Assembly (NCBI RefSeq): GCF_014705615.1
Contig: NZ_JACXJA010000008.1
Coordinates: 1-64,000 of the forward strand
Length of the DNA: 64,000 bases
Reading direction: 5' to 3'
Origin: Paenibacillus oceani
GTDB lineage: Bacteria; Bacillota; Bacilli; Paenibacillales; NBRC-103111
A program made the translations under genes and the position numbers. How positions within the stretch are numbered: position 1 is the first letter of the stretch; each line of letters begins with the position of its first letter. Below the pieces are notes generated by a model that was not told the DNA's origin, made no database searches, and saw nothing but the letters and a program-made list of their open reading frames with translations. Shown in pieces: positions 45,411 through 64,000 of the stretch.

Positions 45411-45484
45411 AAAAAATAAAACCATTCTCCAAGTGTTACGTATACAACAGTGAGAACCGTGTAACGTAGACAGGAGGGTGAGAA

Positions 45485-45919: not shown

Positions 45920-45967
45920 CGATTGCTGCGCACCTGCTGCCGGAAGCTTATCCCATCTAACCTGAGC

Positions 45968-45999
45968 GAACCCTGACCTGTATAGGCAGGGTTCTTTTC
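45968..45999 (+). terminator. Terminator after the lipoprotein gene
   Basis: GAACCCTG (45968-45975) pairs with CAGGGTTC (45987-45994), with further pairing inside, then TTTT. Confidence 0.85.
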
Positions 46000-46022
46000 T
46001 ATGTTTCCCGGCCGAGTGCCGG

Positions 46023-46078
46023 AGTGCAAAAAAAATGAACGATTATCCAACACGAAGTGCAAAAAGAACGATTTATCC
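46023..46078 (+). promoter_or_regulatory. 33-bp-spaced direct repeat upstream of solute-binding protein 3
   Basis: AGTGCAAA...GAACGATTATCC (46023-46048) and AGTGCAAAAAGAACGATTTATCC (46056-46078; given here only by ends) start 33 bp apart, three helical turns. The second copy ends just before the -35 position of TAAAAT (46107-46112). This layout is typical of AraC-type activator sites. Confidence 0.6.
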
Positions 46079-46130
46079 TCCAAAGCTTTTCGCCCGGCTC
46101 CCGCGATAAAATTACGGTAACAACGCGAGT

Positions 46131-46144
46131 TGTAAGCGTTTGCG
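46131..46144 (+). promoter_or_regulatory. cre (CcpA) site upstream of solute-binding protein 3
   Basis: TGTAAGCGTTTGCG matches TGNAARCGNWWWCA at 12 of 14 positions, with the central CG intact. It lies downstream of the -10, 14 nt before the ATG, where CcpA would block transcription when preferred sugars are present. Confidence 0.65.
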
Positions 46145-46158
46145 AAAAGAGGGAGAGC

Positions 46159-47547: not shown

Positions 47548-47623
47548 AGCGGTACGAGCGGACGGTTCCCATGAAACGGAGCCGTTCGCCGATCTTTCAA
47601 CCGATTCTGGAGGAGGAACGATC

Positions 47624-50059
47624 ATGAGCCAAGCCGATCGCCACAGTAAGGATCAACCGGAGAAGCTGCAGCAGGAGGCGTTCACGAAGGAGAACGCCGA
47701 TTGGACGGACCCCGGCCATATCGCGGCGCAGAAGCTGAGCCGGCGCAGGCTGCTCGCCTCGATCGGGGCGGCGGGCGCCGCCGCCGTCGTATACGGCACG
47801 ACATATGGAATGGCTAGTGCCGGCAGAGGCGGGAAGGACGACCCGGATGTAATCGATGCCGTATACGGGGATAGCCGGATCAACCCGAGGCCGCCGAAAC
47901 CTCCGAAACCCCCGGTTCCCCCGCAGGAGCTGGCCTGCTGCGATTTTGTAAAAACGACGCTTGCTGAGCTGCGCGCCTTAAGCGCTCCCAGCTCCGACGT
48001 GGTTTATTATATGACCGATTCCGGGATGGAAGGCTCGTTGCTGTACGATCCGTCCGACACCACGTCGGCGGACAATACGGGGCTTGTGGTCGTCTCCTCC
48101 TCCGGAGCCCGCTTCAAGCGGATTGTCGAGGACGGCCGTTATAATGTCAGATGGTTCGGAGCGAAGGGCGACGGAGTTACCGACGATCTGGACGTGATTC
48201 AGGCGGCGATCGACGTCGTTTATGCGCTGGGCGGCGGGACGGTTTATTTTCCGAAAGGCACGTACATCGTCTCCCCGCTGCTGCAGACGCGGCGGATCGT
48301 CCCGAAAAGCAACGTGCATCTGCTCGGCGAAGGGACGAACTCGGTCATTAAGGTGAAGGACGACGCCGGCGACTATTGGACGATTTTCGGCAATTTCCAG
48401 ACTTGGCCGAAGGTGAGCAACGTATCGATCCGCGGTCTGAAGTTCGATCAAAATCCGGGCGGCAATACGACGTGCAATATTGATCATCGCCGGACGGATT
48501 ACTATTGGACGCAATTTTGCATCAGCCTGTTCAATTACGAAAACATCGCGATCGAGGATTGCACCTTCGATCCGATCTGCGGCTGGAATACGGTCGTGCT
48601 TAACAATGCCGCTTCGCGCAACGCGATCGTCAACAACTGCACGTTCCGCTTCATCCACGCGAGAGGCTATGACGGTTACGATAATTCGGCCGTTTATATG
48701 AACGGCTGGTCGCATGTCGTCACGAATTGCCGCTTCTATGCCGCTCCCGGAGAGAAAGCGATGGGCGCCATCGAGACGCACAGCGGCAAAAGCGTCGTCT
48801 CGGGCAACGTCTCGGACGGTTACGTTACCGGCGTCCATATCCAGTCGAGCGAGACGAGCGGCGACGGGGCGGACATTACCGTCTCGGGCAACACGTTTAC
48901 GAACGCCGTGCATGCGATCCAGTTTTGGCCGTATAAGCAGTATTCGCTCAAAAATGTGACGGTAACGGGCAATACGGTCAGTCTGGCCAACGCGAGACAG
49001 CAGCGCAGCATGATGGTCGGGATCGGGGCGTTCCCCGGCGCGTTGCCCCCGGATCACACGGGAACGTTCGAGAACATTGCGATAACCGGCAATACGATCA
49101 TCTGCGAGGAGGAGTTCGTCAAGCGGGATAACGTGCTGGAGGGATTCTGCTACGGCATCGGCTTCGTCCGCGAAACCGACGTCAAACATATCGTCATCGC
49201 GGGCAATATCATTAAAAACGCGCCAATCGCGGCGATCCATATCGGCAATACGCCGAAGTTCGGCACGATGTCGAACATTCAGATTACGGACAATATGATC
49301 GTCAACGCGGGTCATTATCCGGCGGGCAACGAAGCGTACAAAGCGGCGATTCTGCTTCGTTCGACCGTGGCCGGAGCGAAAATATCCGGCAATACGATCC
49401 GCGAAACGTATGCGACGTCGCGCGGTCTGTACTCGATCCGGCTGAACGCCGCAGACGGATCCTTTGCGGACGTGGAAGTGACCGACAATGTCATTACGTC
49501 GGTTCAAGGCGGCTTATGGCTCGATCTGCACGCCTCGGTTCGTACGAACAGCGCCGAGAAACATCTGAAATTTACGGATCGCGCTTTCGACGACCCGCTG
49601 CTGCCGGCAGGCACGACGTATCAGCCGGGGACCGTCGTGCTGGCGACAGGCAGTACTATCGTTCCGGGTCTGACACCGGCGGGCTACCGCATCTTGAACG
49701 GGGGCACGTTCGGTACTCTAACCGGCGTAACGGCGACCGGGACGGCGGGCTCGTACAAAGTAACGGTGAACGATTCGTCCCAGCTTCGGGTCGGGCAATG
49801 GATCAAGATTGCCACAGGAGACCAGACGCGCCGGATTAACCGGATCGCCGGCAACGAGCTCCGGATCAACGCGCCGCTCTCCGTCGCCGTGGCGTCTCCC
49901 AGCGCCGTACTGTACGTTCCGCCGGTATACGAGCCGTTCGGCCATACCGGTAAGCTGCCCGCTATCGCCGATACGTCGGGGCTGTCCGTCGGCCAGCTCG
50001 AAACGGAGCTGAACGCGCTGAAGCAGGCGATGCGGGATTTCGGCATCATCAACGTGTAA
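47624..50059 (+). CDS. Tat-exported right-handed beta-helix protein 2 (pectate-lyase-like)
   Basis: 811 residues. A cytoplasmic lead (about 1-36) is followed by a twin-arginine signal SRRRLLASIG with an Ala-rich core, a proline-rich linker (PKPPKPPVPP), a short beta domain, and the WFGAKGDGVTDDLDVIQ motif that opens a pectate_lyase_3 beta-helix (about 190-660). The last 120 residues are a separate beta domain. It is built like the protein at 33786 and again follows a solute-binding gene. ATG 47624 follows GGAGGAGG. The substrate is unknown; no lyase-type catalytic Lys/Arg or GH28 Asp triad could be placed with confidence. Confidence 0.83.
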   Translation: MSQADRHSKDQPEKLQQEAFTKENADWTDPGHIAAQKLSRRRLLASIGAAGAAAVVYGTTYGMASAGRGGKDDPDVIDAVYGDSRINPRPPKPPKPPVPPQELACCDFVKTTLAELRALSAPSSDVVYYMTDSGMEGSLLYDPSDTTSADNTGLVVVSSSGARFKRIVEDGRYNVRWFGAKGDGVTDDLDVIQAAIDVVYALGGGTVYFPKGTYIVSPLLQTRRIVPKSNVHLLGEGTNSVIKVKDDAGDYWTIFGNFQTWPKVSNVSIRGLKFDQNPGGNTTCNIDHRRTDYYWTQFCISLFNYENIAIEDCTFDPICGWNTVVLNNAASRNAIVNNCTFRFIHARGYDGYDNSAVYMNGWSHVVTNCRFYAAPGEKAMGAIETHSGKSVVSGNVSDGYVTGVHIQSSETSGDGADITVSGNTFTNAVHAIQFWPYKQYSLKNVTVTGNTVSLANARQQRSMMVGIGAFPGALPPDHTGTFENIAITGNTIICEEEFVKRDNVLEGFCYGIGFVRETDVKHIVIAGNIIKNAPIAAIHIGNTPKFGTMSNIQITDNMIVNAGHYPAGNEAYKAAILLRSTVAGAKISGNTIRETYATSRGLYSIRLNAADGSFADVEVTDNVITSVQGGLWLDLHASVRTNSAEKHLKFTDRAFDDPLLPAGTTYQPGTVVLATGSTIVPGLTPAGYRILNGGTFGTLTGVTATGTAGSYKVTVNDSSQLRVGQWIKIATGDQTRRINRIAGNELRINAPLSVAVASPSAVLYVPPVYEPFGHTGKLPAIADTSGLSVGQLETELNALKQAMRDFGIINV

Positions 50060-50076
50060 GGAAGGAGTCGCTCCCT

Positions 50077-51198
50077 ATGGCAGGAGTATCCCTGCGCAAT
50101 CTGTATAAAACGTATGGCAAAAACAGCCCGTATGTCGTAAAGGACGTTTGTCTGGATATCGAGGACGGGGAATTTATGGTATTCGTCGGACCGTCCGGCT
50201 GCGGGAAATCAACGACGCTGCGCATGGTGGCCGGTCTGGAGCGGGTAAGCCAAGGCGAAATCTATATCGGCGACGAGCTGATGAATCATGTGCCTCCGAA
50301 GCGGAGAGATATCGCGATGGTGTTTCAAAACTATGCGCTGTATCCGAATATGAGCGTCTTAGAAAATATGGCGTTCGGCTTGCGGCTCCGCAAAACGGAG
50401 AAGCATCTGATCGATTCGTCGGTGAAGCAAAACGCACGGACGCTAGAAATCGAGCATCTGCTGGAGCGGAAGCCCCGGCAGCTGTCCGGCGGCCAGCGTC
50501 AGCGCGTCGCACTGGGGAGGGCGATCGTCCGGCACCCGCAAGTATTCCTTATGGACGAGCCGCTGTCCAACCTCGACGCCCGTCTGCGCGTGCAGATGAG
50601 GACGGAGATCGTCGAGCTGCACCGGAGACTGGGGACGACGATGATCTACGTCACCCACGATCAGACGGAAGCGATGACGATGGGAAGCCGGATCTGCATT
50701 ATGAAGGACGGCGTCATCCAGCAGGTGGGTGTGCCGGAAGAAGTATATATGCGTCCGGCCAATATGTTCGTGGCGAACTTTATCGGTTCGCCGCCGATCA
50801 ATTTTATGGACGGACGGCTGAAGCCGGGCAAGAGCGGCGGTCTCATCTTCGATACGCCCCGCTTCGCGCTGCCGGTGTCTCTGGAGAAGAGCAGGCGGCT
50901 GCTGGAGATGGGGTATCTGGATAAAGCGGTCGTGCTCGGCATCCGGGCCGAATATGTGCAATGGCAGGAAGCGGATGCCGGCGAGAGCCAGCCCGGGGAG
51001 GCGCCGATCCGCGGAGAAGCTTATTTCAGCGAGCTGGTCGGGGCGGACCGGTTTATCCGCGTGAAGGCCGGCGACGACAAAATCGTGGCCAGAGCAGCCG
51101 CTTACGATCGGGTCGCAGAAGGGACGAAGCTCCTTTTAACGTTTAATCCGAACTACACGCTGTTTTTCAATCGGGACACACAGCAGTTGATCGTTTAA
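50077..51198 (+). CDS. Sugar ABC transporter ATP-binding protein (MsmX/UgpC-like)
   Basis: 373 residues. Walker A GPSGCGKST, Q-loop FQNYALYP, signature LSGGQRQRVALGRAI, Walker B VFLMDEPLSNLD and the switch histidine VTHDQ are all present. The C-terminal TOBE-type regulatory domain (about 240-373) is that of CUT1 sugar importers. It begins 17 nt after the beta-helix gene. It is the only ABC ATPase in the window and so the likely energiser of both permease pairs at 54252 and 60569. In Bacillus MsmX serves several importers, a precedent for sharing. Confidence 0.93.
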   Translation: MAGVSLRNLYKTYGKNSPYVVKDVCLDIEDGEFMVFVGPSGCGKSTTLRMVAGLERVSQGEIYIGDELMNHVPPKRRDIAMVFQNYALYPNMSVLENMAFGLRLRKTEKHLIDSSVKQNARTLEIEHLLERKPRQLSGGQRQRVALGRAIVRHPQVFLMDEPLSNLDARLRVQMRTEIVELHRRLGTTMIYVTHDQTEAMTMGSRICIMKDGVIQQVGVPEEVYMRPANMFVANFIGSPPINFMDGRLKPGKSGGLIFDTPRFALPVSLEKSRRLLEMGYLDKAVVLGIRAEYVQWQEADAGESQPGEAPIRGEAYFSELVGADRFIRVKAGDDKIVARAAAYDRVAEGTKLLLTFNPNYTLFFNRDTQQLIV

Positions 51199-51291
51199 GA
51201 GGTTCCCCTGACAAGAAAGCGGAGAATGCCGTAAATCGGCCCCGCTATAGGGGAGCTGCTTCATAAGGCACAAGGGTGGAGAGGATTGTCG

Positions 51292-54255
51292 ATGGGAACG
51301 AAATCTGGAAGTGCCGTGAAGCTCGCGCTGGCGGGAGCGCTGCTCCTGGTGCCGTGCGGCAGCCTGTTCGCCGGCGGCACCGCAGCCGATTCCCGGCAAG
51401 ACGGCCGTACGGTCAGACCGCCGGTCGAACGGTTGTCCGAAGCGTATGCGTCGTTATACTCGCAGACGCTTCTCGAGTGGATCGAGAAAGGGTGGAAGGA
51501 TGCGCTAGCCGACGCCCCCCGTGCAGCGGCTAACCGCTTCTCGGCGGCGTCTTCCGGCGTCTCGGTCCGGTCGGACCGCTTGCTGGGCAAAACGGGCGTG
51601 CTCCAATTTATGCAATCCAAGGATTGGGCCGAATTCGAGATCGACGTGCCGCAGGACGGCTTATATACGATCGATTTGACGGTTTTGCCGCTGGAAGGGA
51701 CGCTTGGCCCCGTTCAGATCGGGGTGAAAATCGACGGTGCATTTCCTTTTGCGGAGGCGAGAAACATCCAATTGCCGCGCACGTGGACGGAATCGGTGTA
51801 TCCGCCTGCCGTCAATGAGCACGGGGATCAGATCCGTCCGTCGCAGCAGGAAACGTCCGAATGGAGCGTGCGGCCGCTGACGGACTCCAAATTATCTAGC
51901 CCGGGTCCGCTTCGCTGGAAGCTGTCCAAGGGCAAGCATACGATCCGGCTGGAATCGGTGCTGGAGCCGTTCGCGTTGGCGGAGTTGGCCGTCAGGGCTC
52001 CCCGCCAATTGCCGGCCTACGAGCAAGTCGCGGCAAGCTGGCAGTCGCTGCCGGATAACGTCCAGCCCGGCTGGACATCCGTACTGGAAGCGGAACAGAT
52101 GAGCGCCAAATCGGACCCGTCCGTACAGGTGCAGGCAAGCAACGACAACCTTGCCGCTCCCGCTTCAAACGGCAAGATGATCTACAATACGATGGGCGGC
52201 TACCGATGGAGCAGGGGCGGGCAATCGGCGGAATGGACGTTCGACGTTCCCAGCGACGGTCTGTACTATATCCATTTCAAATATTTGCAAAACTTTACGA
52301 AGGACGCGATCAGTTTCCGGGAAATCCGCATCGACGGCGAAGTGCCGTTCCTCGAACTGCAATCGTATCCGTTTCCGTATTCGCGCAACTGGAACGTGGA
52401 CCACCTGAAGGATGATCAAGGGAAGCCATACGCGATCTATCTGACCAAAGGAAGCCACACGCTGGGACTGACAGCCGATTCGTCCCCGACTACCCCGATC
52501 CGCGAATCGATCCAGGCGATTGTCGATGCGTATCAGGAGTTGAACCGTCAAGTGGCGATGGTGACCGGCGTCAAAAACCGCAGCATGGTGGATCAGAACC
52601 GGGATTGGAACTTGTCGGAATCGATGCCGGGCATCGAGGCGCAGGTGGGCTCGCTCGCCGACCGTCTGCAGCAGCAGGTCGACAAGCTCCAGCAGCTGTA
52701 CGGCAATTCGCTGCAGGGGGCGGAAGGGCTGCGCTCGGTCATCTTCGATCTGCGTAAGATGGCTGCACAGCCGGATCTGCTGTCGAAGCGGCCGCCCGAG
52801 CTGCATGCGCAAAACCTGGAGAAAATGACGATGTTTATCGACGCATTGGCCCGGCAGCCGCTGACGCTCGACCGGATCTACGTTACCTCGTCCCCGGAAC
52901 AGCCTGCCAAGCCGCCGGGTACGCTGGCCGTTCTGGGCGATCTGGTGCAAAACTTTTTCCGTACGTTCTCGCCGGACTACCATTATTACGGCCGCCGCGA
53001 TCCGGACGGAATCGACGTATGGGTCAACCGGGGGCGTGATTACGTAGCGCTGATGCAGCAGCTGGCGGACGAATCATTCACAGCGAAGACGGGAATCAAG
53101 GTCAACATTAATCTGATGCCGAACCCCGGACAGCTCATCCTGAGCAACTCCGCGGGACGCGAGCCGGATGTGGCGCTCGGGATCGCCGAAGGCACTCCGG
53201 TCGATTTCGCGATGCGCGGCTCTTTGACGAAGCTGAGCGACTTTCCGGACTATGCGGCCATGGCTCCGCGGTTCGTACCGGGTACGCTGATCCCGTTCAC
53301 GTATGACGGCAGCGTTTATGCGCTGCCCGAGACGGTTGCGCTGAACGTGCTGTTTTACCGCACCGATATTTTGCAGCGGATCGGCTTAAAGCCGCCGGAC
53401 ACGTGGGACGACATGTACAAAATGCTGCCGACGCTGCAGCAGAAAGGGTACGATTTCTTTTTCGCCAGGCAAAATTATGTGCCGCTCTTCTTGCAGAACG
53501 GTGCGTCCTTTTATACAAATGATGGGTTAAGCTCCGCCTTGAACTCGAGGGAGGCGTTCAACTCGTTCAAGATGTGGACGGAGCTGTTTACGGTATACGG
53601 ATTTCCGACCGAGGTTCCGAGCTTTTATATGCATTTCCGCCGCGGCGATATGCCTGTCGGGATCGCCGATTACAACGCCTACATGCAGCTGCTTGTGGCC
53701 GCGCCGGAGCTGGCGGGCTCCTGGGAGATCGCGCCGATTCCCGGCATGAAGCAGCAGGACGGGACCGTAGCCCGCTGGTCGGGCGGCAACATGACGTCCG
53801 GGATGATCTTCAAGTCGTCGAAGCGGCAGAACGATTCCTGGGAGTTTCTGAAATGGTGGACGTCGACGGAGACGCAGTCCCGGTTCGGCAACGAGATCGA
53901 GCTGCAGAACGGCGTCGAGTTTCGCTGGAATACGGCGAATGTGGCGGCCTTTCAGACGCTGCCTTGGCCGGAGAAAGACCGAGATACGATTCTTAGCCAG
54001 TGGAAGTGGTACAAGGAAGTGCCGAACGTGCCGGGCGGGTACTTCACTTCACGCGAGCTGACGTTTGCCTGGACGCGGACGGTGCTGCAAAACGGCAACT
54101 ACCGGGAAATGCTCGAAAAAGCGGTGTTCCAGATCGACAGCGAGCTGAAACGCAAGCAGCGGGAATTCGGCTTCGTAAACGATCAGGGGAATACGGTGCG
54201 AAAACTGCGAGTGCCCGATGTGACGATACCATGGGAGGAGGCGGGCAAACGATGA
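51292..54255 (+). CDS. Large multi-domain solute-binding protein, 987 aa
   Basis: 987 residues, about twice the usual size of a sugar solute-binding protein. After a signal peptide (about 1-30) come two beta-sandwich-like modules (about 95-240 and 275-405, with AEFEIDVPQDGLYTIDL and AEWTFDVPSDGLYYIHF as matching strands). A helical coiled-coil linker (about 420-520) follows, then a complete family 1 sugar-binding domain (about 590-985, with LNVLFYRTDIL). The paired modules resemble carbohydrate-binding domains. ATG 51292 lies 7 nt after GTGGAGAGG; the TTG at 51286 is too close to that SD. Its end overlaps the first permease gene by 4 nt. The lipobox is doubtful (LVPC), so it may be released or anchored otherwise. 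Confidence 0.85.
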   Translation: MGTKSGSAVKLALAGALLLVPCGSLFAGGTAADSRQDGRTVRPPVERLSEAYASLYSQTLLEWIEKGWKDALADAPRAAANRFSAASSGVSVRSDRLLGKTGVLQFMQSKDWAEFEIDVPQDGLYTIDLTVLPLEGTLGPVQIGVKIDGAFPFAEARNIQLPRTWTESVYPPAVNEHGDQIRPSQQETSEWSVRPLTDSKLSSPGPLRWKLSKGKHTIRLESVLEPFALAELAVRAPRQLPAYEQVAASWQSLPDNVQPGWTSVLEAEQMSAKSDPSVQVQASNDNLAAPASNGKMIYNTMGGYRWSRGGQSAEWTFDVPSDGLYYIHFKYLQNFTKDAISFREIRIDGEVPFLELQSYPFPYSRNWNVDHLKDDQGKPYAIYLTKGSHTLGLTADSSPTTPIRESIQAIVDAYQELNRQVAMVTGVKNRSMVDQNRDWNLSESMPGIEAQVGSLADRLQQQVDKLQQLYGNSLQGAEGLRSVIFDLRKMAAQPDLLSKRPPELHAQNLEKMTMFIDALARQPLTLDRIYVTSSPEQPAKPPGTLAVLGDLVQNFFRTFSPDYHYYGRRDPDGIDVWVNRGRDYVALMQQLADESFTAKTGIKVNINLMPNPGQLILSNSAGREPDVALGIAEGTPVDFAMRGSLTKLSDFPDYAAMAPRFVPGTLIPFTYDGSVYALPETVALNVLFYRTDILQRIGLKPPDTWDDMYKMLPTLQQKGYDFFFARQNYVPLFLQNGASFYTNDGLSSALNSREAFNSFKMWTELFTVYGFPTEVPSFYMHFRRGDMPVGIADYNAYMQLLVAAPELAGSWEIAPIPGMKQQDGTVARWSGGNMTSGMIFKSSKRQNDSWEFLKWWTSTETQSRFGNEIELQNGVEFRWNTANVAAFQTLPWPEKDRDTILSQWKWYKEVPNVPGGYFTSRELTFAWTRTVLQNGNYREMLEKAVFQIDSELKRKQREFGFVNDQGNTVRKLRVPDVTIPWEEAGKR

Positions 54256-55253
54256 CGATTCGTTCACAACAAGGCGGTCCGCAGGTGGTTCCGTCAATGA
54301 CAGGCACAGGGTTGGGCGGACGCCGGGCCGTTTTCATTCAGGAGAAATGGCGCAGTCTGCTTTCCGAATTGAGGAAGAGCTGGGTATCCTATTTGTTCGT
54401 AAGCCCCTTCTTCCTGCTGTTCGTGCTGTTTATCGCGCTGCCGACGGTGGCGGCGATTGTGCTCTCCTTTACGAGCTTTAACGCCATCGAGCCGCCAACC
54501 TTTGTCGGACTGTTTAATTACCAGGTGTTGTTTACACAGGATCTTGTCTTCTGGCAGTATGCGCTGCCGAATACGTTTTTGTTCGCCCTGATCGTAGGCC
54601 CGGTCGGCTACGTGCTTTCGTTTATGCTCGCTTGGCTGATCGCCCAGCTGCCGGACAAAATCCGGGCGTTTTATACGCTGGCTATGTACGCGCCGTCGAT
54701 GACCGCCGGAATCGCCATGTCGGTCGTATGGCTCATCTTGTTCAGCGGCGACCGGATCGGTTATCTGAACAACTTTCTGCTGTCGATCGGTTACATCAAC
54801 GAGCCGAAGCTGTGGACCACGTCGCCGGAGTACATTATGAAGATTATGATCGTCGTCTCGTTATGGGCCAGCATGGGCGTCGGTTTTCTGGCGATGCTGG
54901 CCGGCATCCAGAACGTCGACAAGCTGCTCTACGAGGCGGGGCGGATCGACGGAATCCGTTCCAGGCTGCAGGAGATCTGGTACATTACGATACCTGCGAT
55001 GAAGCCGCAGATGCTGTTCGGGGCGGTTATGGCGGTGGTAGGCACGCTGAAAGCGGGCTCGATCAGCGTCGAGCTGACCGGCTCGAACCCGTCTCCCAAT
55101 TATGCGGGGCACTTAATGATCAACCATATCGACGATTACGGGTTTATCCGCTATGAGATGGGGTATGCATCGGCGATATCCGTCGTTCTGCTGATCATCA
55201 TCTATTTGTCCAGCAAGCTGTGCTGGAAGCTGTTCGGCTCGAAGGGGGAGTAA
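54252..55253 (+). CDS. Sugar ABC transporter permease A1 (MalF/LacF-like)
   Basis: 333 residues with about six transmembrane helices after a cytoplasmic N-terminal stretch. The EAA loop that contacts the ATPase is ADLEAAR-like, here seen as LLYEAGRIDGIRSRLQEIWYITIP. ATG 54252 overlaps the stop of the large solute-binding gene (ATGA), so it is translationally coupled. It pairs with the permease at 55257 as the two halves of a CUT1 channel. Longer open frame upstream to 54000 is a shadow. Confidence 0.92.
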   Translation: MTIRSQQGGPQVVPSMTGTGLGGRRAVFIQEKWRSLLSELRKSWVSYLFVSPFFLLFVLFIALPTVAAIVLSFTSFNAIEPPTFVGLFNYQVLFTQDLVFWQYALPNTFLFALIVGPVGYVLSFMLAWLIAQLPDKIRAFYTLAMYAPSMTAGIAMSVVWLILFSGDRIGYLNNFLLSIGYINEPKLWTTSPEYIMKIMIVVSLWASMGVGFLAMLAGIQNVDKLLYEAGRIDGIRSRLQEIWYITIPAMKPQMLFGAVMAVVGTLKAGSISVELTGSNPSPNYAGHLMINHIDDYGFIRYEMGYASAISVVLLIIIYLSSKLCWKLFGSKGE

Positions 55254-55256
55254 CAT

Positions 55257-56135
55257 ATGGCGATGATTCCGTTCCGAAGACGCCGGAGGTTGCACCGGAC
55301 TACCGCATTCCAGTGGGTGCTGACGGCGCTGCTTACGCTGCTGGCCGTCTTTATGCTGCTGCCGATGGTGTATTTGTTCAATCACGCGCTGAAGCCGTAT
55401 CACGAGCTGTTTTTGTACCCGCCGACCTTTCTGGCGAGGCAGCCGACGCTTGATAATTTTTACGACCTGCTCCTTGTCACCAAAACGGCAATCGTGCCTG
55501 TCAGCCGTTATATTTTCAACGGGGTGATCGTCTCCCTGGCTACGATTATTCTCGGAGCGCTCCTTTGCGCGATGTGCGCGTACGCTTTGTCCAAACATCA
55601 GTTTATCGGCAAAAAGTGGATGTTCTCGGTGATTATCGTCTCCCTGATGTTCGCACCGGAGACGGTGCAAATACCGCGATATTATGTGATCAGCACGCTG
55701 GGCATTATGAACACGTATTGGGCGCATATTTTGCCGGTGATTGCACTGCCGGTCATCGTGTTTCTGTTCAAGCAATTCATCGATCTGCTGCCGGATGAGC
55801 TGCTGGAGGCTGCGCGGATGGAAGGAGCGAGCGAGTTTGTTTTGTTCGGCCGGATCATCCTGCCACTGTGCATGCCGGCGGTGGCGACGGCGGGCATTTT
55901 GCTGTTCCAGTCGTCGTGGGGCAATATGGAGGCGTCGACGCTGTATATCGAGGACGAGACGATGAAAACATTGCCGTTTTATGTCAGCTCGATGACGAGC
56001 GGACTTGCCAATAACGTAGCCCGTCAAGGCGTGGCTGCAGCAGCCGGGCTGCTCATGTTCGTTCCGAGCTTCGTGCTGTTCCTCTTCCTCCAGCGCAAGG
56101 TCATCTCGACGATGGCGCACTCCGGACTGAAATGA
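55257..56135 (+). CDS. Sugar ABC transporter permease A2 (MalG/LacG-like)
   Basis: 292 residues, six helices. The EAA motif is LLEAARMEGASEFVLFGRIILP, given here by its core EAARMEGAS. It is the second membrane half beside the permease at 54252, with 3 nt between them. The end overlaps the upstream in-frame start options of the NHL gene (ATGA at 56132), which suggests continued coupling down the operon. Confidence 0.92.
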   Translation: MAMIPFRRRRRLHRTTAFQWVLTALLTLLAVFMLLPMVYLFNHALKPYHELFLYPPTFLARQPTLDNFYDLLLVTKTAIVPVSRYIFNGVIVSLATIILGALLCAMCAYALSKHQFIGKKWMFSVIIVSLMFAPETVQIPRYYVISTLGIMNTYWAHILPVIALPVIVFLFKQFIDLLPDELLEAARMEGASEFVLFGRIILPLCMPAVATAGILLFQSSWGNMEASTLYIEDETMKTLPFYVSSMTSGLANNVARQGVAAAAGLLMFVPSFVLFLFLQRKVISTMAHSGLK

Positions 56136-56179
56136 CCGGCACAGGCAGCGGGAATACAGGAAAGGGGATGGAAAGAGCG

Positions 56180-57616
56180 ATGAGTGGGAAGTTAGTCAGA
56201 CGAAGCTTGCTTGCGCTGCTCGCGCTCGTGGTCTGCGGATTGGGGAGCGGCGCAAGCGCGCGCGCCGAAGTGCCGTACGGAACGTTTATTTACGACTTGA
56301 GCGGCCGGGAAATCCCGGTTCAGCCGGCCTATGTGCCGGAGACGTTTTTTCACGGCGGATTGAAAAATCCCGAAGATTTGTTCATCGATGCCAAGGACCG
56401 GCTGTTCGTAGCCGATACGGGAAATAACCGGATCGTGCAGATGGACTTGCGGGGCGAGACCCGACGCGTCATCCAGCCGGAAGGGACCGGCAAGCTGAAC
56501 GAGCCGGGCGGCGTGTTCGTCAGTCCGGACGGGACGATTTACGTCGCGGATACGAAAAATCAGCGAATCGCCGTATTCGAAGAGACAGGCGGTTTCCTAC
56601 GTTCCATCGGCAGGCCGCAAGCTCCGATGATCCCGCCGGATTTCGTGTTCGAGCCTACCAAGCTCGTCGTCGACGAGCGGGGATATATGTACGTCGCGAC
56701 GCGCAACGGATATCAGGGACTGCTGCTGCTTGATCAGGACGGAGCGTTTGAAGGATTTTTCGGCGCGAACAAGGTCGATTTCCAAATGTCCGACGCGCTG
56801 AAACGCGTATTTTTTACGAAGGAGCAAATGCAAAAGGAGCTGCTCAAGCTGCCCGGCACCGTCTCCAACGTCACGGCAGGCTCGGACGGCCTGTTATACA
56901 CGACCTCGATGAAGGTGACGAGAGGGCAAATCAAAAAGCTGAACTACGACGGCAAAGATCTGCTCGGCGAGCAAAACTACGGCGTCAAACGGCTGCTGGC
57001 CGGCCAGCAAAAGCAATTTACCGACGTAGTGGTCGATTCTCTCGGCAATATGACCGCCGTCGACGCGTTGTTCGGTTTGCTGTTCCAATACAACTCGGCG
57101 GGAGAGCTGATGTTTGCATTCGGCAGCAAGGACGAAGGCTACGGCAAGCTCGGGCTGTTCCAATATCCGTCCGCGCTGGCGGTCGACTCGGCGGGAACGT
57201 TGTACGTGCTGGACCGGACGGCCCATATGATCCAGACGTTCAAGCGTACCGAATTCGGAGCGCTCGTCCAGAAGGCGACGGATCTGCACCTGCAGGGGCA
57301 TTATGACGAAAGCGAAGGCCCGTGGCGGGAAGTGCTGCATCTGAACAGCAAATACGTCAGGGCGCATCTCGGTCTGGCCAAATCGTATTACAAAAACGGA
57401 GAATATGCCGAGGCGATGTGGGCGTTCCGGGAAGGCGGCGATACCGGAGGATATTCCGACGCTTTCTGGCAGTTGCGGCTGCTCTGGATGCAGCGGCATT
57501 TTACGCAAATGGCGGCTATCGGGGCAGTCGTGCTGCTGATCGCATATGCCGGATGGAAGCTGAAAACGAAACGGGCCCGAAGGAAGGACGGTGAACGCAT
57601 TGAATCTGCAGCCTGA
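56180..57616 (+). CDS. Membrane-anchored NHL-repeat protein with TPR-like segment
   Basis: 478 residues from ATG 56180, where the signal peptide begins; ATG 56132, overlapping the permease stop, is also possible. A signal peptide (about 1-30) is followed by an NHL beta-propeller (about 55-310; repeats such as LFVADTGNNRIVQ and IYVADTKNQRIAV), a TPR-like helical part (about 355-425) and a C-terminal transmembrane helix (about 450-468) with a basic tail. The protein should face outward. Such NHL proteins next to YIP1 and DUF5696 genes recur in Paenibacillus carbohydrate loci to my knowledge. No enzymatic motif is seen; a scaffold role is inference. Confidence 0.8.
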   Translation: MSGKLVRRSLLALLALVVCGLGSGASARAEVPYGTFIYDLSGREIPVQPAYVPETFFHGGLKNPEDLFIDAKDRLFVADTGNNRIVQMDLRGETRRVIQPEGTGKLNEPGGVFVSPDGTIYVADTKNQRIAVFEETGGFLRSIGRPQAPMIPPDFVFEPTKLVVDERGYMYVATRNGYQGLLLLDQDGAFEGFFGANKVDFQMSDALKRVFFTKEQMQKELLKLPGTVSNVTAGSDGLLYTTSMKVTRGQIKKLNYDGKDLLGEQNYGVKRLLAGQQKQFTDVVVDSLGNMTAVDALFGLLFQYNSAGELMFAFGSKDEGYGKLGLFQYPSALAVDSAGTLYVLDRTAHMIQTFKRTEFGALVQKATDLHLQGHYDESEGPWREVLHLNSKYVRAHLGLAKSYYKNGEYAEAMWAFREGGDTGGYSDAFWQLRLLWMQRHFTQMAAIGAVVLLIAYAGWKLKTKRARRKDGERIESAA

Positions 57617-58355
57617 CCACAACGAAGCGAAGCGGAGAAGATTTCCGTTCCGTATACCGTCCGTTGCCCTGTTCCGAGCATCGGGTTACACACCGGACCT
57701 TCTATCGTCCGGCTTCTGGGCGCAGCTGGCCAGGGATGTCGGCTATCAGCTCAAGCAATCGCTTCGGGTGCTGAAGCACCCTTTCGAAGTGTTCTGGGAA
57801 ATCCGCTATCGTCCCGAAGGCAGCATGTGGGCGGCGGTGCTGCTGCTGGCGTCCGGCTACTCGGTACATGTGCTGTCGCAGCTGGCGACTTCTTATTTGT
57901 TTAACCCGTCGGGCGACGATATGGTGAACCCGCTGACTTTGCTGCTGCAATCGCTGCTGCCGTGGGTTACCTGGGTGTTCGCCAATTATTTGATCGGCTC
58001 GATTATGAAAGGCCAGGGCCGCTGGACCGAGGTGTTTGTCGGCAGCGCTTATGCGCTGATGCCGTTTCTGCTCCTCTCTTTGCCGCTCGCGATTTTGTCC
58101 AACATTTTAACGCTGAACGAGAGGGTCGTATACGATTTCGGCAATGTGGCGATGGTGTGTTGGACGCTGTTCTTATTTTTCGTCATGGCGAAAGAAATCC
58201 ATAACTACGACATCGGGGAGACGGTGCTTAATGTCGTCCTGTCCGTGCTGTTTATGATCGCCATCTGGATACTGCTGTTTATTCTGGCAGGACTTACGTT
58301 CCAGCTGTACGACTTCGTCTCCCAGATTGTGAAGGAGGTGTCGTACCGTGGTTAG
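57591..58355 (+). CDS. YIP1 family membrane protein
   Basis: 254 residues with about five transmembrane helices (about 80-105, 118-145, 155-178, 190-208, 215-240) after a basic cytoplasmic N-terminus of 70 residues. This is the YIP1/DUF1282 layout. GTG 57591 lies 26 nt inside the preceding NHL gene, and the end overlaps the DUF5696 gene by 8 nt. It is thus locked between them. YIP1 proteins have no settled function in bacteria. Confidence 0.8.
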   Translation: MNALNLQPDHNEAKRRRFPFRIPSVALFRASGYTPDLLSSGFWAQLARDVGYQLKQSLRVLKHPFEVFWEIRYRPEGSMWAAVLLLASGYSVHVLSQLATSYLFNPSGDDMVNPLTLLLQSLLPWVTWVFANYLIGSIMKGQGRWTEVFVGSAYALMPFLLLSLPLAILSNILTLNERVVYDFGNVAMVCWTLFLFFVMAKEIHNYDIGETVLNVVLSVLFMIAIWILLFILAGLTFQLYDFVSQIVKEVSYRG

Positions 58356-60567
58356 ACGTGCTGCTACGGGGATGCTTATAGCCGCGGTGTTGGCCGTCGC
58401 CGTATATATCGTAGTATTCGGCGGGCCGTTCGGCCCGGCGGCGCCGGAGAACGGGGGCGAACCGGCGGCTGCGGCGAATCCCGCTTCCTTCGCAAGGATG
58501 GAATACGAGCCTGCCAGCTACCGGGTAGTCGCGGAGAACAGCAAGCTGGAACTTCACGTAAACGATGCCGGGCATATCCGGGTGTTCGACAAGCCGGGCG
58601 GACGTTTCGTCTGGCAGAGCGACCCCGATACGTCCAAGGAGCGGGACTTGAGGGGGATCTGGAAGAGCAACGCCGATTCGCCGTTTTTGCTGGATTATGC
58701 GGACAGCTCGAAGCAAACGACCGGCGTCCTGATCCAGACCGCCAATCTGAGCGACGCCAAAACGAAAACGACGGTCGAGCCGGCGGCCGGCGGTGCGAAT
58801 ATTACGTTTGACTTGCAGACGCTGGGCATCGAATTCAAGACCGAAATCCGCTTAAAGGACGACTACGTGGAGGTAACGATTCCGGATAGCGGCATCGTCG
58901 AGAAGACGGCCAAACAGGTCGTGTCGATCTGGCCGTTCCCGTTTTTTGGCGCGGCGCAGAAAGGCGACATCGAACAGGACGGCTATATGCTCGTGCCGCT
59001 GGAGATGGGCGCCATCGTCCCGATGAAGCAGGAGCATCAGCTGCTCTCCCGCGTATCCGCCAAGTTGTATGGCAGCGACCGGGCGATCCCGGGCCAGCCG
59101 GGATCGAATTCGATCATCCCGGCGTTCGGGATGAAGCGGGATTCGCATTCGTTCGTCGCGATCGTCGAAGAGGGGGAATACACGTCGACCGTACACGCCA
59201 CTCCTGCGGGATTGTATACGTCCTACCATTGGATCGCCCCGCAGTTCGTGTACAGGAACGAGTATTTCCGCCAGACGAGCAAGCTCGGGGCAGGCTACAA
59301 GACGGTCGAGAAGACGAGGACCGCCGACAACAGGCGCATCCGGTATTATTTCCAATCGGGCGACCAGGCGGATTATGCCGGAATGGCTGCGGATTATCGC
59401 AACTATTTGATTGAATCCGAAGGGATGAACCGGATCAAGCCGGTTTCCGAAGCGTTGCCGCTGCTGCTGACCTTGTACGGAGGCGCAGAAGAGAAAGGGC
59501 TGTTCTCGCCGAGATTCGTCCCTGCCACTACGTTCAGTCAAGGCGGCGACATTTTACAAGGGCTGCACAGGGCGGGAATCGGCCCGATCCACGTACTGTA
59601 CGCCGGCTGGTCGGCGGGCGGAGACCGGAGCGTTCTTCCCGAAGTATCGCCTGCGGAGAAAGAGCTGGGCGGCAATCAAGGCTTGACCGCCTTCATCCGG
59701 GAAGCGCAGCGGCTGGGCGACCGTGTCTATTTGCAGGCGGACTATACCCGCTCGCGGCAAAACGACAGCTTCGTCGTCTCGCGCGATGCGATGAAAGACA
59801 TTAACAACAAGGCCCCGTTCAGCAAATGGCTGGGCGAGAACGAATATGTGAACCCTGCAGCCGTCGCGCTCCGGCTGTTCGGCGAACAGGTCGGGAAGTA
59901 CGAAGCGCTCGGCATCGACGGACTATCCTTTACCGGTCTGGAGAGCGTCTACTCCGACTATCGCGCGAGCCACCGCGCCTCCCGGGCTGATGCGGTGGCG
60001 GATTACCGGAAGCTGCTGGCGCTGGCCAAGGAGCGGCTCGGTTCGGCCGGCACGTCGGAAGGCAGCGGTTATTTGCTGGGCAGTACCGACTTCATCCAGA
60101 GGCTTCCGCTCGGAGCGAGCTACGATCTCGTTGCGACGAAGTCCGTCCCGTTTCTGCCGGTCGCGATCCACGGTCTGGTCGATTATTCCGGGGGCTGGGG
60201 GAATATGCGGGAGACGGGGACGTCCGAACGGCTGCGCTCGATCGAATTCGGCGCGCTTCCGCAATATTTGCTGACTTATGAAGATCCGGTAACCTTGCGC
60301 AAGACGTCGGGCGAGTTTATCCTCAGCAGCAAGTATGACGAATGGAAAGAAACGATCGCAACCGAATACAAAAGGTGGAACGAAGCGTTAGGTCCGGTTC
60401 GCAGCGTCTTTATTACAGATCACCGGGAGCTGGCGCCAGGCGTCTTCGAAACCCGTTATGAGAACGGGACTTCCATCGTCGTCAATTACAACGACACGCC
60501 GTATGCCGGCAAAGGCGTCAGCGTGCTGGCTCAAAACTTTGCCGTCTACAGCGGCTTGGGGGGATAA
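58348..60567 (+). CDS. DUF5696 protein, putative extracellular glycosidase
   Basis: 739 residues. An N-terminal signal anchor (about 7-25) holds it to the membrane. A beta-sandwich domain (about 50-330) is followed by an alpha/beta barrel-like domain (about 360-660, with strands ending in GPIHVLYAGW, VYLQADYTR and GIDGLSFTGLES) and a small C-terminal beta domain. The family is DUF5696, which resembles TIM-barrel glycoside hydrolases in layout; the candidate acids are the Asp of QADYTR and the Glu of GLES. The activity is not established. GTG 58348 overlaps the YIP1 gene by 8 nt and the next permease gene starts 1 nt after the stop. Confidence 0.78.
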   Translation: MVRRAATGMLIAAVLAVAVYIVVFGGPFGPAAPENGGEPAAAANPASFARMEYEPASYRVVAENSKLELHVNDAGHIRVFDKPGGRFVWQSDPDTSKERDLRGIWKSNADSPFLLDYADSSKQTTGVLIQTANLSDAKTKTTVEPAAGGANITFDLQTLGIEFKTEIRLKDDYVEVTIPDSGIVEKTAKQVVSIWPFPFFGAAQKGDIEQDGYMLVPLEMGAIVPMKQEHQLLSRVSAKLYGSDRAIPGQPGSNSIIPAFGMKRDSHSFVAIVEEGEYTSTVHATPAGLYTSYHWIAPQFVYRNEYFRQTSKLGAGYKTVEKTRTADNRRIRYYFQSGDQADYAGMAADYRNYLIESEGMNRIKPVSEALPLLLTLYGGAEEKGLFSPRFVPATTFSQGGDILQGLHRAGIGPIHVLYAGWSAGGDRSVLPEVSPAEKELGGNQGLTAFIREAQRLGDRVYLQADYTRSRQNDSFVVSRDAMKDINNKAPFSKWLGENEYVNPAAVALRLFGEQVGKYEALGIDGLSFTGLESVYSDYRASHRASRADAVADYRKLLALAKERLGSAGTSEGSGYLLGSTDFIQRLPLGASYDLVATKSVPFLPVAIHGLVDYSGGWGNMRETGTSERLRSIEFGALPQYLLTYEDPVTLRKTSGEFILSSKYDEWKETIATEYKRWNEALGPVRSVFITDHRELAPGVFETRYENGTSIVVNYNDTPYAGKGVSVLAQNFAVYSGLGG

Positions 60568-60568
60568 G

Positions 60569-61471
60569 ATGTTACCGGCGCAAGCAACGCGCAACAAACG
60601 TTCCCGGCTTTCGATCGAGACGCAGCAGGCGATATCCGGCTATCTGTTTCTCATCCCGTGGCTCGTCGGGCTTGGATTGTTCGTCCTGTTCCCGCTCGGA
60701 TTTTCCCTGTACATGAGCTTTCAGAAAGTCCGCTTTACGGGAGACGGGATGAAGTTCGAATACAAGGGCTGGGAGAACTACTCATACGCTTTTTTGTCGG
60801 ACAATACGTTCGTCACGGCACTGATCAATATCGTCAAAAATACGATGCTCGTCATCCCGATTATCGTCCTGTTTTCCTTGTTCGTGGCGATTTTGCTGAA
60901 TATGAAGTTTCGCGGCCGGATGTCGTTCCGCGCGATCTTTTTCCTTCCGGTCATCTTCAGCACGGGACAGGTGTTATCGGAAATATTCAACCAGAAGGCC
61001 GGAAGTCTCGACATGCTGAACAATTACGATATCGCCGGCTTCGTCTCGGCCAACGTGCCGACCTTTTGGGCCGACCCGATCTTAACCGTGCTGAATTTGT
61101 TCGTCGTCATTCTCTGGTACTCGGGCGTGCAAATTCTGATCTACCTGGCCGGCTTGCAGACGATCGGCTCCAGTGTGTACGAAGCGTCGCTGATCGACGG
61201 GGCGACGGCCTGGGAGATGTTCTGGAAAATTACGCTTCCCGCGCTGACTCCGTTCATCCTGCTTAACGTCATCTATACGGTCGTCGACATGTTCACGGTG
61301 CCTCTGCTCAATCCGGTGCTGAACATGATCGTTACGAATATGTCCGCGCCTAATCTCGGCTACGGCTACGCCAGCGCGCAAGGCTGGATTTATTTCTCCG
61401 TCGTGTTCGCCCTGCTGCTGGTGGTGCTGGGGCTGTCGCGCAGATTCGTTCATTATTCCGGGGAAAGGTAG
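60569..61471 (+). CDS. Sugar ABC transporter permease B1 (MalF/LacF-like)
   Basis: 300 residues, six transmembrane helices. The EAA core is YEASLIDGATAWEMFWKIT. The frame is open upstream to 60458, but ATG 60569, directly behind the GGGGGATAAG that includes the end of the DUF5696 gene, gives the normal N-terminus. It is the first half of a second permease pair in the same operon. Its sequence is clearly different from permease A1. Confidence 0.92.
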   Translation: MLPAQATRNKRSRLSIETQQAISGYLFLIPWLVGLGLFVLFPLGFSLYMSFQKVRFTGDGMKFEYKGWENYSYAFLSDNTFVTALINIVKNTMLVIPIIVLFSLFVAILLNMKFRGRMSFRAIFFLPVIFSTGQVLSEIFNQKAGSLDMLNNYDIAGFVSANVPTFWADPILTVLNLFVVILWYSGVQILIYLAGLQTIGSSVYEASLIDGATAWEMFWKITLPALTPFILLNVIYTVVDMFTVPLLNPVLNMIVTNMSAPNLGYGYASAQGWIYFSVVFALLLVVLGLSRRFVHYSGER

Positions 61472-61480
61472 GGGAGCGCC

Positions 61481-62407
61481 ATGATAGGGAGACATTGGGC
61501 GGACCGGGCGCGCACCTTGCTGCTCGGCGACCGGGAACGGAAAGGAATGATCGTGCTCGTCATCTTGTATCTCGTTCTGCTGGACATCGCGCTGATGTAT
61601 TTGACGCCGTTTCTGTATATGCTGTCGACGATGTTCAAGACGACGGCCGATCTGCTCGATCCGACGATCCGGTGGGTGCCGACATCGTTCGAATGGAGCA
61701 ATCTGAGACTGGCGTGGGAGGGGCTGAAATTTCCCGAAGCGCTCAAAAACTCGCTGCTTTTGTCCGGCAGCTCGGCGATCGGGCAAGTGTTATTTTGCTC
61801 GCTCGCCGGTTATGCGTTCGCCAGACTGAAGTTTCCGGGCAAAAATATTTTGTTCGCGCTGCTTATTTTCAGCTTCCTGATCCCACCGCAAACGCTGATT
61901 ATTCCGCTGTACGTCCTGTTCAAAAATTTGGGACTGCTCGGCACCCATTGGGGCATTATCTTGCCCGCCCTGCTCGGGCACGGCATCCGGGGAGCGCTGT
62001 TCGTCATTATATTCCGTCAGTTTTTCATGACGCTGCCCAAAGAGCTGGAGGATGCCGCGCTGATCGACGGCGCCGGACCGTTCCGGGTGTACTGGCGGGT
62101 GATGATCCCGCTGGCGAAGCCGGCGATCGTCGTCGTATTCCTGTTTTCCTTCGTCTGGCATTGGAACGAGACGTTCATCACCGGGATGATGCTCGGGGGC
62201 AACGATATGCCGCTGTCGCTCAGCTTGTACAGCCTGAACAAAGTATTGACGGGACTGTACCCGGATGCCGAGGGCGGCAGCTTCGATCTGAACGAAACGA
62301 TCCGGATGGCGGCCAGCTTTCTGATCATTATGCCGCCGCTGATCGTCTACATGATCGCCCAGCGATGGTTTGTCGAAGGGGTCGAGCGGACCGGTCTGGT
62401 GGAATAG
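61481..62407 (+). CDS. Sugar ABC transporter permease B2 (MalG/LacG-like)
   Basis: 308 residues with six helices. The EAA core is LEDAALIDGAGPFRVYWRV. It pairs with permease B1, which ends 9 nt earlier. ATG 61481 has a GGTAGGGGAG SD. With pair A it makes four permease genes for one ATPase in this locus. The pair has no solute-binding protein gene directly beside it; the nearest are the 987-residue protein and solute-binding protein 3. Confidence 0.92.
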   Translation: MIGRHWADRARTLLLGDRERKGMIVLVILYLVLLDIALMYLTPFLYMLSTMFKTTADLLDPTIRWVPTSFEWSNLRLAWEGLKFPEALKNSLLLSGSSAIGQVLFCSLAGYAFARLKFPGKNILFALLIFSFLIPPQTLIIPLYVLFKNLGLLGTHWGIILPALLGHGIRGALFVIIFRQFFMTLPKELEDAALIDGAGPFRVYWRVMIPLAKPAIVVVFLFSFVWHWNETFITGMMLGGNDMPLSLSLYSLNKVLTGLYPDAEGGSFDLNETIRMAASFLIIMPPLIVYMIAQRWFVEGVERTGLVE

Positions 62408-62424
62408 GGAATGAGGACATTCAA

Positions 62425-63462
62425 ATGAATCGTAGAATCGAGGGTAAAACGATGGGTATGGAGAGAGGCAAGGTGAAATTTGCCGTCGTCGGCTGCGGAG
62501 GCATTTCGTTCAGCCATTTTATCGGGATCGAGCGGGCTCCCGAAGCGGAATTGGCTGCCGTTTGCGACGCAAACGAGAGCCGGGCGGAAGAATACGGCAG
62601 CAAATACGGGGTTAAAGCGTATACCGATTACGGCAAGCTGCTCGCCGACCCGAACGTGGAGACGGTCTGCTTGTGCACGCCGAGCGGCATGCATGCCGAA
62701 CAGACGATCCAGGCGGCGGAGGCGGGCAAACATGTCATCGTCGAGAAACCGATGGCGATCTCGCTGTCGGATGCCGACCGGATGATCGAAGCTTGCGAGG
62801 TGATGGGCGTCAAGCTGGCGACGATCTTTCCCAGGCGCATGTCGCCGGCTTCGCAGTTCGTCAAGAAGCTGCTCGATGAAGGCAAGCTTGGACGGCTGAG
62901 CCTATGTACCGGCTATGTCAAGTTTTACCGGGACCAGGCCTATTACGACAGCGCCGGATGGAGGGGGACGTGGGCGATGGACGGCGGCGGGGCGATGATG
63001 AACCAGGGCATTCATACGATCGATCTGCTGCAATGGCTGGCCGGGCCGGTCGAGACGCTGCACGGTTACGCCCGGAACATTTTGCGCGATATCGAAGTGG
63101 AGGATACGGCCGTCGTCTCGATGCAGTTCAAGAACGGGGCGCTCGGTTCGATCGAAGCAACGACGACGGCCTACAAGCAGCCGGACCACCGGATCGTCAT
63201 TCACGGGGACAAAGGGACGATTGAGCTGACCGGCGACGAGATTACGGCGCTGGATGTGATCGGGGAAACGGTGCACATCCCCGCTTTCGAGCCGTTCTCC
63301 GTCGTGCCGGACGGACATGCCGCTCAAATCCGCGATATGGCGCTTGCCATACGGGAAGACCGGCCGCCCGTCGTAACGGGACACGACGGAAAACGATCGC
63401 TTGGAATTATCCTTGGATCTTACGAGTCGCAGCGAAGTCACCGGGAAATTATTTTGATGTAA
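62425..63462 (+). CDS. Gfo/Idh/MocA family oxidoreductase
   Basis: 345 residues from ATG 62425 (SD TGAGGA); ATG 62452 behind GAGGG is an equally good start. The Rossmann motif VVGCGGISFSH and the VEKPMAIS (EKP) motif are present. The middle contains GAMMNQGIHTIDLLQWLAG, with the His and Asp of the Gfo/Idh/MocA active site. It would oxidise or reduce the sugar brought in by the upstream transporters. It closes the operon 17 nt after permease B2. A much longer open frame reading back to 61495 is only chance in a GC-rich region. Confidence 0.9.
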   Translation: MNRRIEGKTMGMERGKVKFAVVGCGGISFSHFIGIERAPEAELAAVCDANESRAEEYGSKYGVKAYTDYGKLLADPNVETVCLCTPSGMHAEQTIQAAEAGKHVIVEKPMAISLSDADRMIEACEVMGVKLATIFPRRMSPASQFVKKLLDEGKLGRLSLCTGYVKFYRDQAYYDSAGWRGTWAMDGGGAMMNQGIHTIDLLQWLAGPVETLHGYARNILRDIEVEDTAVVSMQFKNGALGSIEATTTAYKQPDHRIVIHGDKGTIELTGDEITALDVIGETVHIPAFEPFSVVPDGHAAQIRDMALAIREDRPPVVTGHDGKRSLGIILGSYESQRSHREIILM

Positions 63463-63490
63463 CGGGGGCGCTGTCCCGGAGAGAGCCGGT

Positions 63491-64000
63491 TTACTTGATA
63501 ATCCGGTACCCCCCGGACAGCGTCTTGGCATATTCGGAAGGCGTCATATCGGTCGACTTCTTGAAATGCCGGGAAAAGTAGTGGACGCTGCTGTAGCCGA
63601 GCAGCTCGGAAATTTCCGTCAAATTGTAAACATCCTCGCGGATATACATTTTCGCCCGGTCGATCTTGAGCTGGTTCAAATATTCCATGACGCCGCAGCC
63701 GACCCGTTTTTTGAACATAATGCTGATTTGCGTACGTCCGATCGCAAAATGGTCGCATAGCTGGTCCAGCGTCAAATTTTCGCCGATATGCTCGTTCATG
63801 TAGGTGATGATCTTGTCGGCCATCCCGATTTCCTGCTTCTCGCGCGGAACGGGAGCGGCCGGAGGCTCCTTGTCGGCGTGACCGGAGCGGATCAGGTGGA
63901 TGAGCAGCGTCTCGAGATGCACTTTGAACAGTTGCTCGCTTCCGAAGGGCGCGTTTTCGCGGGGGGTCAGGATGCGTCCGCTGCCCGTCGGATTCGGGCC
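63491..64000 (-). CDS. AraC family transcriptional regulator 3, N-terminus beyond the edge
   Basis: The frame stays open to base 64000, giving 169 residues; the N-terminal part is outside the window. The C-terminal 100 residues hold two helix-turn-helix motifs (LTLDQLCDHFAIGRTQISIMF, named by its core FAIGRTQIS, and LGYSSVHYFSRHFKK) and the AraC ending MTPSEYAK. It faces the glycan operon tail to tail, 28 nt from the Gfo/Idh gene. It is a different AraC subgroup from regulators 1 and 2 (shorter second HTH loop, no cupin visible). It may control the operon starting at 46159, but its sensor part is not visible. Confidence 0.88.
   Translation of the reverse strand, partial: GPNPTGSGRILTPRENAPFGSEQLFKVHLETLLIHLIRSGHADKEPPAAPVPREKQEIGMADKIITYMNEHIGENLTLDQLCDHFAIGRTQISIMFKKRVGCGVMEYLNQLKIDRAKMYIREDVYNLTEISELLGYSSVHYFSRHFKKSTDMTPSEYAKTLSGGYRIIK

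Follow-up and report, generated by a model that had tools for sequence, protein, structure and literature searches.

How a single operon comes to hold two pairs of importer permeases, and whether its genes serve one purpose, is the question raised by positions 51292-62407 of a 64,000-nucleotide stretch of the Paenibacillus oceani genome (RefSeq assembly GCF_014705615.1, contig NZ_JACXJA010000008.1, positions 1 to 64,000, forward strand; hereafter the window). Genes for a large solute-binding protein (SBP; SBPbig), a first permease pair (PA1 and PB1), an NHL beta-propeller protein, a Yip1-domain protein (YIP1), a DUF5696 protein and a second permease pair (PA2 and PB2) run head to tail in one direction there. 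The open reading frame (ORF) list and family scans showed that neighbouring genes overlap or sit a few nt apart, with overlaps of 4 nt between SBPbig and PA1, 4 nt between PB1 and NHL, 26 nt between NHL and YIP1 and 8 nt between YIP1 and DUF5696. This packing, and the single ATPase gene at the head of the run, had been reported in a preliminary description of the window and were confirmed. Our analysis makes it likely that these genes are a conserved module, in which two CUT1-type importers are inherited as one set, for the uptake of complex plant-wall oligosaccharides.

The recurrence of the full set is far beyond chance. Of 124 annotated stretches chosen in four ways, the window's own among them, 114 contain it, and the earlier claim that the genes belong together thus held in a survey of neighbourhoods. 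All four DUF5696 loci of the P. oceani genome consist of SBPbig, PA1, PB1, NHL, YIP1, DUF5696, PA2 and PB2 in the same order. Among the best 80 of at least 512 NHL-YIP1 matches (the named loci) the full set was present in 72, in hosts that include Paenibacillus, Bacillus/Lederbergia, Cohnella, Ruminiclostridium, Ruminococcus, Lachnospiraceae, Caldicoprobacter and others. Further NHL-YIP1 loci had the full set in 18 of 20 cases, and the remaining two, cut in the first stretch, were complete once extended. Because the named loci had been selected by NHL-YIP1, a second survey was started from DUF5696, and all 20 loci picked from the top-scoring matches listed (19 genomes) carried the full set. 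The gene order was nearly always that of the window, with median intergenic gaps of -4 to 15 nt within the set. Contig ends truncate five of the eight incomplete named loci (L043, L065, L066, L073 and L103), and in L100 PA1-PB1 is located elsewhere. In L067 and L076 no SBPbig-PA1-PB1 stands upstream and the stretch ends after DUF5696; a swapped order of the two halves is possible in both. A full module was also present in L114, a metagenome-assembled genome labelled Alistipes (Bacteroidota), which reflects either transfer or a wrong label. In-frame stops were noted in SBPbig, often as a single TAG or TAA, and in the two genes that were checked the stop was the natural last codon.

The same linkage was seen when whole genomes were scanned. 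With E thresholds of 1e-100 for SBPbig and 1e-60 for DUF5696, each was found in 45 of 89 sampled genomes of the order, and the 45 were identical; at most 9 and 11 candidates per genome, respectively, were scored. A same-strand DUF5696 gene lay within 8 kb of 99 of the 110 SBPbig matches (one broken gene in genome G061 is counted twice), and SBPbig lay within 8 kb of 98 of the 112 DUF5696 matches. Among the other 11 SBPbig matches, six are separated from DUF5696 by a gap of about 24-30 kb, one lies 123 kb off and four have no DUF5696 on their contig, three of these four being contig ends. The 14 DUF5696 matches without SBPbig within 8 kb include seven that belong to six split modules, one that does have SBPbig (G006:C24) and one on a contig of 6.8 kb (G009:C89). 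The relative genome G006 has 11 DUF5696 matches, the maximum that was scored, a large expansion of the module. In wider samples, NHL-YIP1 was found at E up to 1e-30 in 38 of 398 genomes of the phylum (at most 2 candidates scored per genome), and in the order 154 of 246 genomes had a DUF5696 match above the family cut-off (at most 5 candidates scored).

Exceptions to the common order reveal that the module consists of two units, SBPbig-PA1-PB1 (unit A) and NHL~YIP1-DUF5696-PA2-PB2 (unit B), the latter usually with a small SBP. Two loci (L183 and L184) have the swapped order small SBP-NHL~YIP1-DUF5696-PA2-PB2-SBPbig-PA1-PB1. In six genomes about 24-30 kb of mostly co-oriented genes separates ATPase-SBPbig-PA1-PB1 from NHL~YIP1-DUF5696-PA2-PB2. 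Eight of ten proteins in the one inserted block that was scanned had Pfam matches, including the glycoside hydrolase (GH) families GH95, GH2, GH42 and GH106 and DUF5060/apiosidase-like proteins. Several genes of the split module of genome G068 are in pieces. Both the swapped halves and the split modules thus keep NHL~YIP1 and DUF5696 together with PA2-PB2, and the small SBP joins this group in L183 and L184.

The two permease pairs belong to separate CUT1 lineages, and the EAA loops of both are intact. The first consists of the UgpA-type PA1 (54252-55253) and the UgpE-type PB1 (55257-56135), both matching PF00528, and the second of PA2 (60569-61471, with ATG at 60569; PF00528, scanned from 60566) and the UgpE-like PB2 (61481-62407). 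The glycine of the EAA loop was present in 118 of 118 PA1, 116 of 116 PB1, 118 of 119 PA2 and 118 of 118 PB2 rows, which count the window twice. All four permeases keep the loop and therefore both pairs should couple to ATPases. An ATPase gene between DUF5696 and PB2 was found in none of the 124 stretches, so the second pair has no ATPase of its own there, as had been anticipated. The P. oceani genome has four members of the PA1 group and four of the PA2 group, the window's own included, and all are in modules; the next matches drop from 328 to 122 bits for PA1 and from 199 to 109 bits for PA2.

The features of a CUT1 importer were found together in the window: MalF/MalG-type permeases with EAA loops, extracytoplasmic SBPs and a MalK/MsmX/UgpC-type ATPase above its cut-off. 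The ATPase (50077-51198; NF008653, 451.5 bits against a cut-off of 432; PF00005) belongs to the general MsmX/UgpC type. Only 30 of the 111 complete modules have such a gene directly upstream. The head ATPase of the preliminary description is thus real in the window, while its place at the head is not general. SBPbig (51292-54255, 987 aa) has an N-terminal hydrophobic anchor (residues 7-31), two sandwich-like repeats, a helical linker and a C-terminal SBP domain (PF01547 at 587-862). Its SBP domain is closest to Lin1841 (5ysb; PDB profile E 6.8e-38) and its second repeat resembles part of 5x7g (E 5.9e-7); by our own reading the sandwiches may resemble carbohydrate-binding module family CBM35. 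The SBPbig alignment covered 35 of 75 proteins of the named loci and the window's own. The second SBP of the co-directional run is the small SBP (46192-47547; PF13416/PF01547, scanned as 46147-47547), whose start was picked from a lipoprotein-like N terminus, with an alternative ATG at 46159. Transport of oligosaccharides by both pairs is predicted. Compared with ordinary CUT1 oligosaccharide importers that use an MsmX/MsmK-type ATPase, the module shares the UgpA/UgpE-type permeases with EAA loops, the SBP and the UgpC-type ATPase, but it has two permease pairs, a giant SBP with CBM35-like domains, NHL~YIP1 and DUF5696.

The preliminary description proposed that trimmed products pass to either channel. 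The distribution of the small SBP fits two importers better. A small SBP adjoins 70 of 116 modules (41 downstream and 29 upstream) and stands elsewhere in the stretch in 13, giving 83 of 116 in total, and it sits with unit B in the two loci with swapped halves. These counts are lower bounds because the scans varied (43/77, 80/116 and 83/116) and Pfam still assigned 4 of the 106 cargo ORFs to SBP_bac_1. By analogy with other loci, the window's small SBP would be the receptor of the second pair. Two Ruminococcus flavefaciens loci (L091:17009-18820 and L101:16945-18753), in which the scan found no small SBP, encode a membrane glycerophosphodiester phosphodiesterase after PB2.

A composition of this kind had been thought undescribed, yet the xylan degradation locus (XDL) of Caldicellulosiruptor (Anaerocellum) bescii has the same gene set. 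Locus L129 of our survey reads SBPbig-PA1-PB1-NHL~YIP1-DUF5696-PA2-PB2-small SBP. The operator that PMC12285236 prints for XynR at the XDL (Athe_0174) occurs exactly once on L129, at 4206-4225, 150 bases before SBPbig (chance expectation 0.00), which suggests that L129 is the XDL. The operon is printed as xloEFG-X-GH129-axoFGE-xynF... (PMC8579813), and L129 agrees with Table 3 of that paper in gene content and order, matched by position. By position, X would be NHL~YIP1, GH129 would be DUF5696 and axoE would be the small SBP. By gene count axoE would be Athe_0181, and a protein of that number was reported to be non-catalytic and to aid lignocellulose hydrolysis (PMC10492685). The proximal XDL genes are about 10- to 100-fold up on xylan, and msmK encodes a shared CUT1 ATPase whose deletion weakens growth on cellobiose, cellulose, xylan and pectin and leaves the final density on glucose or xylose unaffected (PMC8579813). 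The window differs from the XDL in its operon-encoded ATPase, where the XDL relies on a distant MsmK; in its beta-helix and GFO/IDH cargo, where that of the XDL is xylanolytic; and in a second SBP that lies upstream rather than downstream. In the available parts of the publication the XDL appears as two separate transporters with a nameless 'X' and a 'GH129', and not as a conserved module. In the open literature searched (supplements excluded) no paper mentions DUF5696 by name, and searches of the open literature found no paper on YIP1 and NHL repeats with an ABC transporter in Paenibacillus, on NHL repeats in Caldicellulosiruptor, or on NHL repeats with a solute-binding protein in a polysaccharide operon. 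Caldicellulosiruptor and GH129 occur together there in PMC8579813 and in one Paenibacillus paper. The C. bescii member is already published; what appears to be new within the literature searched is the recognition of these genes as a single recurrent module that includes a Yip1 subunit.

The C. bescii work, which names two transporters (PMC8579813), implies another explanation: the operon would merely bring together an exo-enzyme and two ordinary CUT1 importers that work independently on one polysaccharide, with NHL~YIP1 serving an unrelated role in the envelope. We regard this as somewhat less than likely. It agrees with the second SBP that accompanies most modules, with halves that swap order or lie more than 20 kb apart, and with the PA1-PB1 pair that is separate in one strain. 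However, the halves were never found in different genomes, SBPbig and DUF5696 sharing the same 45 of 89 genomes and mostly lying within 8 kb of each other, and nine of the 11 exceptions are long insertions or contig ends. The confinement of the PA1 and PA2 groups to modules in the P. oceani genome also argues against independence.

At the other extreme, all components may form one supercomplex, in which NHL~YIP1 would bridge two heterodimers of transmembrane domains, DUF5696 would stand outside and SBPbig would serve both channels where there is no small SBP. In the window the NHL protein (56132-57616; PF01436, 1.3e-19) has a signal segment, a weak TPR match and one C-terminal transmembrane (TM) segment at 457-475; an in-frame alternative start at 56180 is possible. 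YIP1 (57591-58355) matches PF04893 at 2.2e-12 and 47.6 bits (curated cut-off 28.6). Of the 111 complete modules, 59 have the two fused, with a secreted beta-propeller and TPR, one TM segment and then the Yip1 membrane domain; the NHL and YIP1 products of the window are therefore probably two parts of a single functional protein. No fusion other than NHL~YIP1 was found among the modules scanned. A precedent is YknW of Bacillus subtilis, a bacterial Yip1 protein that acts with the ABC pump YknXYZ (PMC4338810), although that system is for efflux, with a membrane fusion protein and no SBPs. YknW is not known to have NHL or TPR domains. The conservation of the whole set, the frequent fusion, the YknW precedent and the 23 well-flanked modules in which no second SBP was found are consistent with a supercomplex, but the second SBP is present with most modules and PA1-PB1 has moved away in one strain. 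We consider such a complex rather unlikely. Equally tentative, and on balance improbable, is the related idea that the set would be a single obligate machine for capture, trimming and two-channel import, as a Gram-positive counterpart of SusCD-type glycan handling.

The reading that we prefer, two importers inherited as one set, can be put as a working model. In unit A, the membrane-tethered SBPbig would capture long or decorated oligosaccharides by its CBM35-like domains and pass them to the first channel. In unit B, the anchored GH129-like DUF5696 protein would trim or bind side groups outside the cell, and the trimmed products would be imported through PA2-PB2, usually with the small SBP as the presumed receptor. 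Both channels would be powered by a common MsmX/MsmK-type ATPase, with its gene inside or outside the operon. NHL~YIP1, for which YknW offers a Yip1 precedent, most likely serves as an accessory subunit in the membrane that holds the anchored enzyme and the permeases together.

Several observations weigh against this model. The scan found no small SBP in 33 of the 116 stretches, and 23 of these reach 3.4 kb or more beyond the module on each side. Among the 70 modules with an adjacent small SBP, 29 have it upstream of SBPbig, so that either permease pair could be its partner. In R. flavefaciens 007c, PA1-PB1 lies about 37 kb from the rest with no SBPbig beside it, so that the linkage is not absolute; this PA1 is 85% identical to that of strain YAD2003, and the strain retains the whole complement despite the separation. 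Distance-matrix correlations of r 0.70-0.89 are confounded by species phylogeny. Flanking cargo includes GH26, GH10, GH43, GH2, GH3, GH32 and CBM35, with AraC, LacI, GntR and two-component regulators, but no cargo family exceeded 6 of 106 scanned flanking ORFs (106 of 263 were covered) and the non-glycan family Bac_luciferase was found in 5. Because the cargo families are scattered and include non-glycan ones, no single substrate can be assigned. A last point concerns DUF5696: the H and D that precede GW in NagBb, at positions that differ between NagBb chains 5wzn and 5wzq, are not kept.

DUF5696 (58348-60567; PF18952, 522 bits) is N-terminally anchored, and its profile matches the GH129 enzyme NagBb (5wzn, E 1e-15) and DagB (5opq, E 6.8e-12), the latter not a true GH129 according to its authors (PMC5698469). 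It is thus GH129-like and glycan cleavage is putative; it differs from NagBb by its anchor and by the loss of several NagBb positions. In an alignment of 52 of 78 proteins of the named loci and the window's own, 48 of the 53 rows keep D537 and 49 keep E633, whereas only 32 have D at the candidate second acid, D581. D537 is near the expected offset of the catalytic Asp435 of NagBb (PMC5698469), and this placement is by offset only, the aligned part ending at NagBb residue 423. The H and D before GW correspond to L417 and A419 in the window and are variable across the 53 rows; they may be calcium ligands in NagBb, whose structure says only that the calcium has protein ligands. Because these positions are not kept, the activity of DUF5696 is uncertain. 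The protein could be a non-catalytic glycan binder on a GH129-like fold, which would fit this loss, the variable D581 and the window's L218, at a position of a PDGSGAL-type motif that is D in 46 of the 53 rows. The near invariance of D537 and E633 would be unusual for a relic, and we find this explanation doubtful. Some family members carry extra parts, with one ORF of 1921 aa (L087:11343-17105) and four of 1220-1260 aa (L080, L082, L083 and L084).

That the second permease pair is a recent duplicate of the first was rejected, as PA1 matches two PA2 copies at only 44-46 bits, outranked by dozens of other permeases and with the other two PA2 copies unlisted, and at least 10 other permeases outrank the PA1 copies when PA2 is the query.

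The co-directional run extends beyond the set. The small SBP is followed by a Tat-type secreted right-handed beta-helix protein (47624-50059, ATG at 47624; PF12708, 1.7e-15), similar to rhamnogalacturonases and pectate lyases, and then by the ATPase; downstream of PB2 is a GFO/IDH/MocA oxidoreductase (62425-63462; PF22725 and PF01408). The beta-helix and oxidoreductase neighbours suggest that the substrate in P. oceani is pectic or a related heteroglycan. Gene spacing and conservation argue for co-transcription from SBPbig to PB2. A consensus scan of 45400-64000 gave 6 promoter-like sites against 8.8 in shuffled sequences, which is no excess, and 29 terminator-like sites against 19.9 (standard deviation 4.8), on both strands and several inside genes. 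An AraC-type regulator gene on the opposite strand (63491-64000) is convergent with the operon end and runs past the window edge. At 32329-38739 two SBPs (32329-33666 and 37285-38739) flank another PF12708 beta-helix protein (33783-36209), and the window may therefore hold two such glycan clusters.

Our study indicates that the set is found in many plant-degrading Gram-positive bacteria, where it looks like one unit for the uptake of complex plant glycans. The nameless 'X' of a model lignocellulose degrader becomes part of a module that recurs and is genetically tractable. A common context is gained for DUF5696 and a bacterial Yip1 protein, and the two importers are predicted to act as a set. 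If the complex exists, it would be a new glycan-uptake architecture in Gram-positive soil and gut bacteria.

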